64,000 nt of DNA from an uncultured SAR86 cluster bacterium (GTDB lineage: Bacteria; Pseudomonadota; Gammaproteobacteria; Magnimaribacterales; D2472): positions 599,334-663,333 of the forward strand of contig CAJIYN010000001.1 of NCBI GenBank assembly GCA_905181645.1. Direction: 5' to 3'. This document shows, piece after piece, positions 27,346 to 40,401 of this stretch (its first letter is position 1; each line of letters begins with the position of its first letter). The notes beneath the pieces are model-generated. The model saw nothing but the letters and a program-made list of their open reading frames with translations. It had not been told where the DNA came from and made no database searches. The translations under genes and the position numbers were made by a program.

Positions 27346-28345
27346 ATGGCTACAGACAAAACTAAAGATCTTAAAGAGACCCTAAGTCAAATTGAAAAAC
27401 AGTTTGGTAAAGGCTCAGTTATGTTTTTGGGCGACGAGGAGGCAAGAACCGACATTGAGGCCAGTTGGCTTGGATATAGCGCTAGGTATTGGTGGCATTC
27501 CTCAGGGAAGAGTTACTGAGATATATGGACCTGAATCATCAGGTAAAACCACTCTAACATTACAGATTATTGCTGAGTGTCAAAAAAAAGGTGGAACAGC
27601 TGCATTTATTGATGCAGAGCATGCATTAGACCCACAATATGCTGAAAAGCTTGGTGTTAATGTCGATGAGTTATTATTATCTCAGCCAGATACGGGTGAG
27701 CAAGCATTGGAAGTAGCTGATATGTTGGTTAAATCTAATAGTGTAGATTTAGTTATTATTGATTCTGTAGCAGCATTAGTTCCAAGAGCAGAAATAGAAG
27801 GTGAGATGGGAGACCATCACGTTGGATTACAGGCGCGTTTAATGTCACAGGCTTTAAGAAAGATAACTGGAAACATTCAAAGATCAGGAGCAACTGTGAT
27901 TTTTATAAATCAAATTCGAATGAAAATAGGAGTTATGTTTGGAAGTCCTGAGACAACAACTGGTGGAAATGCTCTTAAATTTTATTCATCAGTAAGACTA
28001 GATATCAGAAGAATTGGTGCTGTCAAAGAGGGTGACGAAGTGATAGGAAATGAAACAAGAGTTAAAGTTGTTAAAAATAAAGTTTCACCTCCTTTTAGAC
28101 AGGCAGAATTTCAAATTATGTATGGTCAAGGAATTAATTCAGAAGGTGAGATTTTAGACTTCGGTCAAAAATTAGGCGTTATTGAAAAAGCTGGATCTTG
28201 GTATAGCCATAATGGAGAAAAAATAGGCCAAGGAAAAGTTAATGCAAGTACTTTTCTAAAAGAAAATACTGCAATAAGAGATGCTTTATTAAAAGATATT
28301 AGAGCTGAATATATTGTTTCAAACGCAAAACCTTCCAAGAAATAG
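27346..28345 (+). CDS. recA: Recombinase RecA (frameshift/deletion about 27455-27470)
   Basis: [68 protein letters not shown]. Confidence 0.97.
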
Positions 28346-35102: not shown

Positions 35103-35396
35103 ATGCCGATTTATGACTATAAATGTTCAAAATGTGACCATCAATTTGAAGTAATTCAGAAGTTTTCTGATAAACCTTTAAAAAAATGTCCAGAATGCAA
35201 CTTAAATACTGTTTCAAAAATGGTTTCTGCGCCTTCTTTTAGATTAAAAGGTGGAGGATGGTATGAGACAGATTTCAAAACAGGTAAAAAGAAAAATATA
35301 GCTTCTGACGATACATCTTCAAATAATAGTTCGAAGAAACCCAATAAACAAGATAAAATTACTAAAAAGAACTCTAAAGATAAAAAGGCAGGATAA
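35103..35396 (+). CDS. FmdB-like zinc-ribbon regulatory protein
   Basis: [33 protein letters not shown] (CxxC...CxxC). Confidence 0.85.
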
Positions 35397-35398
35397 TT

Positions 35399-37126
35399 AT
35401 GCGATCTCATTATTGTGGTGAAGTTACATTAAAAGATCTCGATACTAATATTTCTATATGTGGCTGGGTCCACAGAAGAAGAGATCATGGCGGTATTATT
35501 TTCTTAGATATAAGAGATATAAGAGGAATATGTCAGGTTGTAGTGAATCCTGAAAATAACATAGCTTTTGAGATTGCAGATAATTGTAGAAATGAATTTG
35601 TAATTAAAGTTTCAGGAATGGTCTTAACAAGACCTGAAGGAACCATCAACAGCAATATGCCTACTGGAGAAATTGAATTAGAGGCAGAGAATATTGAGCT
35701 TTTAAATAAAGCAGTTACTCCGGCTTTTCCATTAGATAATTATCAGGACGTAAATGAGGATGTTAGATTAAAGAATAGAGTTCTTGATTTAAGACGTCCT
35801 GAAATGAATCATAGAATTGTTACAAGGTCTAAAATAACCTCTGTAATTAGAAATTACCTTGAAGATAATAACTTTCATGAAATTGAAACGCCCATTCTAA
35901 CAAGAGCTACACCTGAGGGAGCAAGAGACTATATTCTTCCTAGTAGAGTTCATCCGGGTGAATTCTTTGCTTTACCTCAATCACCTCAATTATTTAAGCA
36001 GCTGTTAATGATGGGGGGATTTGATAAATATTATCAGATTGCGAGATGCTTTAGAGATGAAGATCTTAGAGCTGATAGACAACCTGAATTTACCCAATTA
36101 GATCTTGAATTTTCTCTTTTACCAGGAGATATTATTTCAACAGGTACTCCGTTTGATAGTTTTATTAAATAAATTTGTTACACCCTTAAGTAGCAGAAAT
36201 TCCTGCATTAAATTGTCATAGTAACTATTTCTGGAAGCAAATAAAAAATCCCTTTAAAGCTTGTTGAAATATCTAATTTAGTTGCAAATGAAGAGTTTAA
36301 AGTTTTTTCTGGACCAGCTAAAGATAAAGAGTCTCGAGTTGTTGCCCTTAAAATTCCTAATGGAAATTCTTTATCTAAGGATATTGTTCATTCATATCTA
36401 GCAGCAGGCGCTTACATAAAAATTAATGATGTAAATGATCTTGAAAACGGCAAGCAATCTCCAATTTTAAAATTCCTTCATCAAGATACCATTAAAAGCT
36501 TAGTAGAAAATTTAGATCTTCAAAGTGATGATCTTTTATTTTTTGGTGCAGGCTCTAACAATGTTGTGAACTTGAGTATGAGTAGCTTAATCAAAAAAAT
36601 TGGAAAAGATCTAAATCTTTATACTTGCAAATGGGCACCTTGCTGGATAGTTGATTTTCCTATGTTTGAAAAAAATAAGGAAGGTAATTTAACCTCACTA
36701 CACCATCCATTTACTATGCCAAAGTCATCTCTTGATGAGTTAGTTGATTCCCCAGAAAGCGTTATTGCAGAGGCTTATGACATAGTTCTGAATGGTTATG
36801 AAGTTGGTGGTGGATCATTAAGGGTTCATAGTCCAAATATGCAAGAAGCAATCTTTAAAGCATTAAATATTTCTGATGAAGAAGCTCAAAATAAATTTGG
36901 TTTCTTCTTAAAAGCATTATCTTTTGGTTGTCCACCTCATGGAGGTATAGCATTTGGCCTTGATCGCTTAGTTATGCTTTTAACTGATACTGCAAATATA
37001 AGAGACGTCATAGCATTTCCAAAAACTCAAAGCGCTTCTTGCCTTTTAACAGAAGCACCAAACTCAGTTGATGAAAATCAATTAGAGGAATTATTTATTG
37101 AGTCTACCTATAAAGAGGAAGATTAA
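35399..37126 (+). CDS. aspS: Aspartyl-tRNA synthetase (foreign patch about 36120-36265)
   Basis: [79 protein letters not shown]. Confidence 0.95.
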
Positions 37127-37860
37127 TGGCAGGACATTCCAAATGGGCAAATATAAAGCATAGAAAAGCTAGACAAGATGCATCACGTGGAAAAGTATGG
37201 ACTAAGGTCATAAGAGAAATAACTGTTGCAGCAAAAGGTGGTCCTGATCCAGATGACAATCCAAGATTAAGATTGGCATTAGATAAAGCAAATGCAGCTA
37301 ATATGCCAAAGGATAATATTAAAAGAGCAATTCAGAAGGGCTCTGGAACTGGTGAGATGGGAGCAATTGAAGAAATTACATTTGAAGGATATGGACCAAA
37401 TGGAGTTGCTATATTAGTTGAAACAATGACTGATAATAGAAATAGAACAGTTGCTGATGTTAGACATGCTTTTTCTAAATTTGGTGGAAACTTGGGAACA
37501 GATGGCTCAGTTGCATATATGTTCACAAAACAAGGTTTTATAAGCTTTGCCTCAGGAGATGAGGATGAAATCATGGAGGTTGCTTTAGAATCTGGAGCTG
37601 AAGATATGACATCATCTGAAGATGGTTATGAAGTTATTACTAGTTCAGTAAATTTGAGTAAAGTTTTAGAAGCTTTAACAGCCAATAATATAGAAACAAT
37701 TGAAGCTGAAGTTGCAACAAGAGCAGATGTTTTAGTAGATCTAGATGCTGAAGCATCAGAAAAGGTTTTAAAGATTATGAATTTTATGGATGATCTTGAT
37801 GATGTTCAAGAAGTTCATACTAATGGAGAATTTGCAGATGATTTTGAGATTGAGGAATAA
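37126..37860 (+). CDS. yebC: YebC/PmpR family protein (TACO1-like)
   Basis: [32 protein letters not shown]. Confidence 0.97.
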   Translation: MAGHSKWANIKHRKARQDASRGKVWTKVIREITVAAKGGPDPDDNPRLRLALDKANAANMPKDNIKRAIQKGSGTGEMGAIEEITFEGYGPNGVAILVETMTDNRNRTVADVRHAFSKFGGNLGTDGSVAYMFTKQGFISFASGDEDEIMEVALESGAEDMTSSEDGYEVITSSVNLSKVLEALTANNIETIEAEVATRADVLVDLDAEASEKVLKIMNFMDDLDDVQEVHTNGEFADDFEIEE

Positions 37861-37862
37861 TT

Positions 37863-38237
37863 TTGCCAGTTAATTCAAGAGCTAAAGGTGCAAATTTTGA
37901 AAGAGAAATTGGAAATTTATTGGTCCAAGATCTTAATTTAATTAATCCAGTAAAGAGAATTCTTGAGCAGACCAGAACAAAAGAATTGCCTGATTTGAGG
38001 CTTGGCAGGTGGTGTATTGAGTGTAAAAGATATGGTGATGGTGGAGAGCCGCCAAAAGAATGGTGGGAACAAGTTTTAAAATCTTGTTCTGCAGAGTCTT
38101 TAATGCCTGCACTTATTTATAAATTTAACAGAAGACCAATCAAAGTTAGATTACTGGCATCTTCAATTAATCCAGCAATCCAAAATAAATTAATAACTGT
38201 GGATTTATTATGGGATGATTTTATAGAGATTATCTAG
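37863..38237 (+). CDS. Putative PDDEXK nuclease / Holliday-junction-resolvase-like protein at the ruvCAB position
   Basis: NSRAKGANFEREIGNLL...ELPDLRLGRWCIECKRYGDGG: conserved Glu, then PD-(x)n-ExK; small 124 aa protein. Confidence 0.65.
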   Translation: MPVNSRAKGANFEREIGNLLVQDLNLINPVKRILEQTRTKELPDLRLGRWCIECKRYGDGGEPPKEWWEQVLKSCSAESLMPALIYKFNRRPIKVRLLASSINPAIQNKLITVDLLWDDFIEII

Positions 38238-38283
38238 AATTATTTCAAAAAGATATTCAACTCCATGAAGAAACATTTCAAGT

Positions 38284-38673
38284 GTAAGGATTTTTCCTTT
38301 AACAGTATTTTGTGAAGATACTGATTTTCAAGGAATTGTTTACCATGCTAACTACCTAAAATATTTTGAAAGGGCTAGAACCCAATTTCTTATAGATCAG
38401 GATATATCTCAAATTTTACTCGAAGCATCTAAACTAGCTTTTGTTGTAAGAGACATCAATTTAAGATTTATTTCGCCAGCTAAACTTGAAGATAAACTTA
38501 TTGTCAGAAGCTCGGTTCAATTCATTTCGAAGGCAAGATTGCTATTTTCTCAGCAAATAATTCAGTTAAATAATGATACTATTATATGTCGCGGAGGGGT
38601 TGAAGTATGTTTTGTAGATTTAATAAAAAACAAACCACGATCTTTCCCTGAAAGGTTATTAAAAATTTTCTAA
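38284..38673 (+). CDS. ybgC: YbgC-like acyl-CoA thioesterase (Tol-Pal associated)
   Basis: FCEDTDFQGIVYHANYLKYFERARTQFL hot-dog thioesterase motif. Confidence 0.88.
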   Translation, partial: VRIFPLTVFCEDTDFQGIVYHANYLKYFERARTQFLIDQDISQILLEASKLAFVVRDINLRFISPAKLEDKLIVRSSVQFISKARLLFSQQIIQLNNDTIICRGGVEVCFVDLIKNKPRSFPERLLKIF

Positions 38674-38685
38674 TGGTTAACTTAT

Positions 38686-39361
38686 ATGAATGACATATCA
38701 ACAATTAACTTATTCCTTGAGGCTGGATTAGTTGTAAAAAGCGTCATGGTAATATTATTATTAATTTCATTATTCTCTTGGATAATTATTATTTAGAAAA
38801 TATTCTTTATAGAAAAATTAAAAGTCTAAACATTATTTTTGAGCGTAAATTCTGGTCTGGTGAAGATCTCAATACTTTATTTAAAGAAGTTAATAATAAT
38901 GATCTTGTCTTATCAGGTTCCTCTAGTGTTTTCAGGAATGCTTTTAAAGAATTCAATCGTTTAAAGTCTGATGAGGATGTTAATGAGTTAGATTTAGAAG
39001 GAATCAATAGGTCTATGAGAGTAGCTATTGCTAGAGATGAAGAGGATATGAACAAGCACTTACCTTTTCTTGCAAATGCTGGATCAGTAAGTCCATACAT
39101 AGGTTTACTTGGAACAGTTTGGGGAATAATGACCTCTTTTCAAGGTCTATCTGATGCAACACAAGCAACCATCAATGCTGTAGCTCCAGGTATTTCTGAG
39201 GCGCTAGTTGCAACTGCAATGGGTTTATTTGCAGCCATACCAGCAGTTGTTGCTTATAATAAATTTACTTCACAATCAGATTCTATTTCGCAAGCGACAA
39301 CTATTTTTGCTGAAGAGTTAGCTAGTATTTTTTATAGGCAGGTTTTAAAAAATAAGAAATG
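38686..39361 (+). CDS. tolQ: TolQ (frameshift about 38795)
   Basis: SPYIGLLGTVWGIMTSFQGL, VAPGISEALVATAMGLFAAIPAVVAYN. Confidence 0.93.
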
Positions 39362-39781
39362 ATTTATCGCTTAGCGAAAAGAAAAAAATTACAAGCCGAG
39401 ATTAATGTAGTTCCATATATTGATGTAATGTTAGTTCTGTTAATTATCTTTATGGTCTTATCTCCTTTACTGATTCAAGGCATAGAGGTTAACTTACCTC
39501 AAACTGATACAACAAAAATGTCAGTCCAAAATGAGCCTTTAGTTATTTCCATAGATTCCAAAGGTAATTATTATCTAAACCTTGGTGATGAGAATCTTTC
39601 AATATCAATTGAAGAGTTAAAAAGAAAAGCTTTAGTTATATATCAAGCAAATAATGATATTGAAGTGGTTTTTCAAAGTGATGAAGCTGTTAGTTTTAAC
39701 AGTGTGGCAAAAGCCATGGCAGCAGTTCAAAGTGTAGGTATTTCTAAGATTGGCATTGTTACAACTGGATATGCAGACTAG
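39359..39781 (+). CDS. tolR: TolR
   Basis: AEINVVPYIDVMLVLLIIFMVLSPLLIQGIEVNLP. Confidence 0.93.
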   Translation: MIYRLAKRKKLQAEINVVPYIDVMLVLLIIFMVLSPLLIQGIEVNLPQTDTTKMSVQNEPLVISIDSKGNYYLNLGDENLSISIEELKRKALVIYQANNDIEVVFQSDEAVSFNSVAKAMAAVQSVGISKIGIVTTGYAD

Positions 39782-40401
39782 AGCTAATTACTTACAAGCG
39801 TCCTTCTTTTCATTTTTAATTCATGCGGCCCTTTTTCTATACTTAATAGGTTTTTTTTACTCAGAAAAACAATTAAGACCAATTTTAAGCAAACCAGTTA
39901 CTGTAAACATTATTGTTGATGACTTACCAAATAAAAATATTAAGCAATCAGAGTCTACAAAAGTTCTTAAAAAAGTAACCCAAACAAGTCCAGTCACTAT
40001 AGCTAAAGATAGCGCTCTAGAAATTCCAAAAATAAGCTCTGAAGGATCAATTATTAATCTTGAAGATTTATTAAACCAAGAATTGGAAGCATTAGATTCA
40101 AATCAACTAGAGAATGAAATTAATCAATACAGCAGCCTGATCATAAACTTAATAGAGTCTGCCTGGATTAAGCCAAAGAATATTCAGGAAAATTTAATAT
40201 GCGATATAAAGATAAAAATAAACTCACGAGGAAGAATTATAAATATAAGCTTAATCCAAAGTAGTGGTAACATTCGTTTTGATAATTCAGCTCTTCAAGC
40301 AGTTAAAAGAGTAGAAATTCCATTTTTTTAATGAAATAAAAAAAGAAAAATACGAAGATGTCTTTAAAAATATTGTTATTAGCTTTAATCCCTCAAAATG
40401 A
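39771..40401 (+). CDS. tolA: TolA, unusually short (frameshift near 40331)
   Basis: N-terminal TM, C-terminal domain CDIKIKINSRGRIINISLIQSSGNIRFDNSALQAVKR; between tolR and tolB. Confidence 0.82.

Follow-up and report, generated by a model that had tools for sequence, protein, structure and literature searches.

A small PD-(D/E)XK nuclease of phage type is probably the core Holliday-junction resolvase of the SAR86 order, in which it appears to have replaced RuvC in situ, with loss of RuvAB. The gene was found in a stretch of 64,000 nucleotides from an uncultured SAR86 cluster bacterium (here called the window). We report its family, conservation, locus, predicted fold and phage context, together with the order-wide absence of RuvABC. 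SAR86 is a very abundant, free-living marine order and RuvAB is otherwise close to universal; in one survey <2% of bacteria were without it, and these were mostly parasites whose genomes are condensed (PMC3403352).

The nuclease gene and its locus

The open reading frame, as read, extends from 37863 to 38237 (+ strand), starts with TTG and encodes 124 amino acids. It begins 2 nt after the stop codon of yebC, with ybgC-tolQ-tolR downstream, and so lies in the slot between yebC and ybgC-tolQ where the preliminary description had placed it. The features of the region are as follows.

27364–28345, + strand: recA, with one frameshift, approximately 10 kb upstream of the nuclease gene (recombination retained)
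35399–37126, + strand: aspS, the conserved upstream neighbour, broken by frameshifts
37126–37860, + strand: yebC, the upstream operon partner, which is followed by ruvC in other gammaproteobacteria (Pfam; outgroup gene order)
37863–38287, + strand: PDDEXK_15 nuclease, candidate Holliday-junction resolvase, native extent (Pfam, phrog_244, relatives of 139–142 amino acids)
38265–38673, + strand: ybgC (thioesterase), frameshifted near 38298, its start overlapping the native end of the nuclease gene
38686–39362, + strand: tolQ, frameshifted near 38797
39359–39781, + strand: tolR

The 124-residue protein had been taken to be intact, which proved incorrect. Compared with the 99% identical copy of a close relative (L003), one T is missing near 38234 (ATCTTAGAA in L003, ATCTAGAA in the window). 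This 1-nt deletion causes the reading frame to end at 38237, whereas the native frame reaches a TAA at 38285–38287, giving a protein of 139–142 amino acids, as in the relatives, with the 3′ end of the gene overlapping the start of ybgC at 38265. A sequencing error is the most likely cause of the truncation, as the window assembly contains many small indels of this kind (in aspS, ybgC, tolQ and the recG and recA fragments). The assembly, which represents a genome of 1.33 Mb with an estimated completeness of 59.8%, looks like one made from uncorrected long reads; relative to L003, indels break aspS, ybgC, tolQ and other genes at 35200–40330 of the window and elsewhere. The nuclease gene itself is genuine and evolves under strong purifying selection, with a dN/dS of 0.03–0.11 against relatives for which dS is near or above 1.

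The nuclease is present in 177 of 199 SAR86 genomes, representing 22 of 22 genera, and in 38 of the 40 genomes that are at least 90% complete; the genomes listed as negative are drafts in several contigs. It is a single-copy gene at a fixed locus. Of the 43 loci found in a scan of bacterial genomes, nearly all come from records titled as SAR86 cluster bacteria, and yebC is immediately upstream and tolQ downstream in every one (43/43). Representatives of four families (f1–f4) have the gene between yebC and (ybgC-)tolQ, including that of f4, the family with the smallest genomes, where the nuclease is kept and ybgC was not detected. A linkage of recA and the nuclease similar to that in the window was seen in other SAR86 genomes. 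Outside SAR86, PDDEXK_15 was found in 3 of 271 other Gammaproteobacteria and 7 of 398 other Pseudomonadota, and at the one non-SAR86 locus read in detail (L086) the nuclease lies amid phage-like genes. A recent phage insertion into one genome is ruled out by the order-wide presence and synteny.

Ten outgroup RuvC loci were compared with this arrangement. In each of them ruvC comes directly after yebC, and eight have ybgC and/or tolQ at the expected downstream position, in agreement with the canonical order (yebC-ruvC...ybgC/tolQ) on which the preliminary description relied.

RuvABC and other recombination genes in SAR86

The reported lack of ruvC, ruvA and ruvB holds beyond the locus: none of the three was found elsewhere in the window assembly or in any SAR86 genome searched. 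The searches were done in six frames on 61–199 genomes, single-contig and complete genomes among them, including the complete 1,325,892-bp chromosome CP097973.1 (G030). RuvC was found in 0 of 61 genomes, RuvA above the cut-off in 0 of 61 (the sole weak match being an acyltransferase) and true RuvB in 0 of 199 (genomes of 0.7–1.8 Mb). Most of the 199 genomes gave RuvB_N matches that were weak and never exceeded 36.3 bits. Five representative RuvB- or RuvA-like matches were DnaX (two), ClpX, FtsH and a YihG-family acyltransferase; a RuvB hidden among the AAA+ matches was rejected on the representatives examined, as was RarA as the identity of some of the RuvB-like matches. As a control, the same RuvC search was positive in 172 of 184 genomes from across the class, and three of the 12 negatives are SAR86. 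The other nine (G201, G202, G221, G236, G470, G252, G270, G291 and G327) are not among the PDDEXK_15-positive genomes of the class and may use other replacements.

RecA was found in 21 of 21 SAR86 genomes, so recombination intermediates are expected in these organisms. Searches for RusA were negative (0/41 genomes), as were those for RadA/Sms (TIGR00416; 0/31 above the cut-off), which gave only partial matches of 17–42 bits, interpreted as the paralogues Lon, RecA and DnaB. Matches to RecG were obtained in the window genome, where the gene is fragmented, as well as in G030 and families f2–f4. RecG was not found in seven f1 genomes of genera g2–g5 that are at least 93% complete (G002, G006, G010, G014, G018, G022 and G026), where the search gave only matches of approximately 340–370 bits in proteins of 1000–1100 amino acids, interpreted as Mfd. 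Of the known dedicated branch-migration enzymes searched for, none was seen in these f1 genomes. In the literature searched, no paper was found that connects SAR86 with ruvC, the ruv genes or Holliday junctions, and an earlier mention of RuvABC loss is possible.

Family, predicted fold and phage relatives

The open reading frame in the window matches the Pfam family PDDEXK_15 (PF24608) with 43.7 bits, above the gathering cut-off of 27 bits, and phrog_244 with an E-value of 1e-13; all 33 members of alignment A2 match PDDEXK_15. The early Glu and PD...ExK signature noticed at the outset corresponds to E13, D44, E53 and K55, which are invariant across the SAR86 and phage homologues and make up the PD-(D/E)XK catalytic pattern.

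37899–37901, + strand: codon for E13, the invariant early Glu of the catalytic pattern (SAR86 and phage homologues)
37992–37994, + strand: codon for D44, the invariant D of PD
38019–38027, + strand: codons for E53-C54-K55 (ExK), of which E53 and K55 are invariant

Further positions invariant in SAR86 and phages are R6, K8, G9, R32, Q36, W67, W68 and Q70. At the sequence level the nuclease does not match the Hjc, RecU, RusA (PF05866) or RuvC (PF02075) families, and the Hjc profile is not among the Pfam matches of the window reading frame at E-values up to 10. Profiles A1 and A2 matched no chain in a PDB sequence search, even at an E-value of 10, and no NCBIfam family was matched. PADLOC gave no match, and identity as a defence gene was rejected on that result. 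The fold of RusA differs from that of the PDDEXK_15 nuclease, and the label carried by phrog_244, 'RusA-like Holliday junction resolvase', looks like a functional label and not one of fold homology. In the literature searched, no demonstrated activity was found for any PDDEXK_15 member, and no papers were found on PDDEXK_15 or on phage PDDEXK/Hjc resolvases.

The final AlphaFold2 model, a monomer predicted from the combined SAR86 and phage alignment, has a pLDDT of 87.2 and a pTM of 0.85. An earlier model from SAR86 sequences alone had a pLDDT of 75.7, which rose to the final value once phage homologues were added; its nearest fold was already Hjc. The model has the core alpha-beta fold of the PD-(D/E)XK superfamily, as judged from AlphaFold2 and the nearest PDB folds. 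In Foldseek comparisons with the PDB, ranks 1–13 are all archaeal Hjc/Hje Holliday-junction resolvases (best E-value 1.8e-3, probability up to 1.00, TM-scores of approximately 0.5), and several named matches among viral structures are annotated as Holliday-junction resolvases. The prediction bears out both the PDDEXK fold and, together with membership of PDDEXK_15/phrog_244, the suggested likeness to phage-type resolvase-like proteins. The best E-value just misses 0.001 and the TM-scores are close to 0.5, so another PDDEXK activity, such as that of a flap or replication-fork endonuclease, could also be accommodated.

On viral contigs, 140 relatives scored above the threshold, and the identity to most of the marine viral homologues found is approximately 34–48%. 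Phages usually keep resolvases in recombination/replication gene sets. The neighbours of the phage copies include a RecE-like exonuclease and a primase/helicase (L093); the Sak annealing protein, SSB and a replication initiator (L111 and C72C1); and SSB, a PD-(D/E)XK nuclease and a primase/helicase (roseophage CRP-406). A characterised resolvase from such phage gene sets is G44P of SPP1 (PMC3485210). SAR86 is the predicted host of one subgroup of the CRP-822-type phages, according to a paper that covers CRP-406 as well (PMC12629253). The family content and phage neighbourhoods support a phage origin of the nuclease and, because the family membership is predominantly viral, we infer that transfer was from phage to SAR86 ancestor.

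In the gene tree, the SAR86 copies and one viral contig form a single clade (support 96/92, or 99/92 with long branches dropped). An exclusive clade of SAR86 chromosomal copies was rejected (p-AU 0.021), with the viral contig nested inside, and for this reason SAR86 is the probable source of the gene in this virus. The copy on this contig (L091, also L092 and L145) is 60% identical to the SAR86 protein, and the contig has tail-fibre, holin and endolysin genes; it is likely to come from a phage of SAR86 that took the gene back from its host. The nuclease there adjoins an SNase-like endonuclease and the holin. Within SAR86, f4 is the first family to branch off and f2 groups with f3, a pattern that fits a gene acquired once and then inherited vertically. 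The swap is better described as ancient and order-wide than as a local event. The earlier reading had RuvABC as a whole replaced by a possibly phage-derived protein: exchange of RuvC and phage origin are supported, but the RuvAB motor is not replaced by anything found, and the nuclease, which supplies no motor, can stand in for RuvC only.

Proposed role and comparison with known systems

We infer that the SAR86 nuclease cleaves junctions, forms a dimer and has taken over from RuvC in vivo. A phage PDDEXK_15/phrog_244 gene would have entered the lineage in a single event that predates the diversification of the order, and would have become established within the yebC-ybgC-tol operon at the ruvCAB locus, where RuvC would have been functionally replaced and RuvAB lost outright. 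The product would be a small, probably dimeric, metal-dependent PD-(D/E)XK endonuclease that recognises RecA-made four-way junctions by their shape and cuts them by paired nicks via E13, D44, E53 and K55. Branch migration, if any, may be due to RecG where present or to other helicases, or may be spontaneous. A broader proposal, which we hold tentatively and at somewhat less than even weight, is that the order carries out RecA-dependent recombination without RuvABC, RusA and RadA (in at least four f1 genera also without RecG), with a single domesticated phage-type resolvase and no known dedicated branch-migration motor as its whole dedicated Holliday-junction apparatus.

The nuclease might instead be selective for another branched structure (flaps, D-loops or stalled forks), with junctions handled by dissolution (RecQ/topoisomerase), RecG or YqgF. 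PDDEXK folds host many activities, and part of the order does have RecG. Promiscuity is common among phage resolvases, according to one report (PMC3864405), and SPP1 G44P also cuts D-loops (PMC3485210). However, the structural neighbours are specifically Hjc/Hje, the gene sits exactly at the position of ruvC and several f1 genera are without RecG as well, making this reading unlikely. Still less probable is a coincidence at the locus, in which RuvABC was lost by streamlining and the captured phage nuclease has an unrelated role in defence or restriction. The small genomes of SAR86 and the phage family of the gene would fit such a history, but retention in all genera under strong purifying selection, even in f4 where ybgC was not detected, argues against it, and a single copy at a fixed locus, unlike defence islands, and the negative PADLOC result argue against a defence role. 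An artefact, with RuvABC missed in an error-rich assembly or the reading frame spurious, can be given hardly any weight: the window assembly does have many frameshifts, but the six-frame searches of 61–199 relatives, single-contig and complete genomes among them, revealed no RuvA, RuvB or RuvC, the RuvB- and RuvA-like matches examined are other proteins, and the reading frame is conserved across the order.

If the nuclease is indeed the resolvase that took the place of RuvC, it represents a clear case of a core recombination enzyme giving way to a non-orthologous one, here a phage-type nuclease in a vacated operon slot, and an unassayed phage family, PDDEXK_15, gains a specific, testable function. 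How junctions are handled in the absence of a branch-migration motor then becomes a question of interest, and the nuclease offers a single-gene system with which motor-free resolution could be studied in ruv and recG strains of E. coli.

RuvC, of the RuvABC resolvasome, is RNase H-like. The SAR86 nuclease shares its operon slot after yebC and, presumably, its role in RecA-dependent recombination, but is of another fold and family and occurs in organisms without the RuvAB motor. RecU has the PDDEXK fold. In the Firmicutes it provides a precedent for a resolvase replacing RuvC in a bacterial lineage (PMC3403352); lineages with RecU, however, retain RuvAB and have recU distant from ruvAB, whereas in SAR86 RuvAB is gone and the gene is in the ruv slot. 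Phage RusA, whose family is not matched by the SAR86 nuclease, and SPP1 G44P, which partly complements recU (PMC3485210), are likewise small phage resolvases from recombination/replication gene sets. The closest solved folds are those of the archaeal Hjc/Hje (1gef, 2wcw, 2wiw and 1ob8), with a similar small size and a comparable order of catalytic residues; the SAR86 protein has no sequence-family match to them, is 15–22% identical in structural alignment and belongs to a bacterial/phage lineage. The phage nucleases of PDDEXK_15 (PF24608)/phrog_244 are of the same family by HMM and have the same E...D...ExK pattern, but the known members are phage genes, whereas the SAR86 copy is a single-copy chromosomal core gene at the ruvCAB locus.
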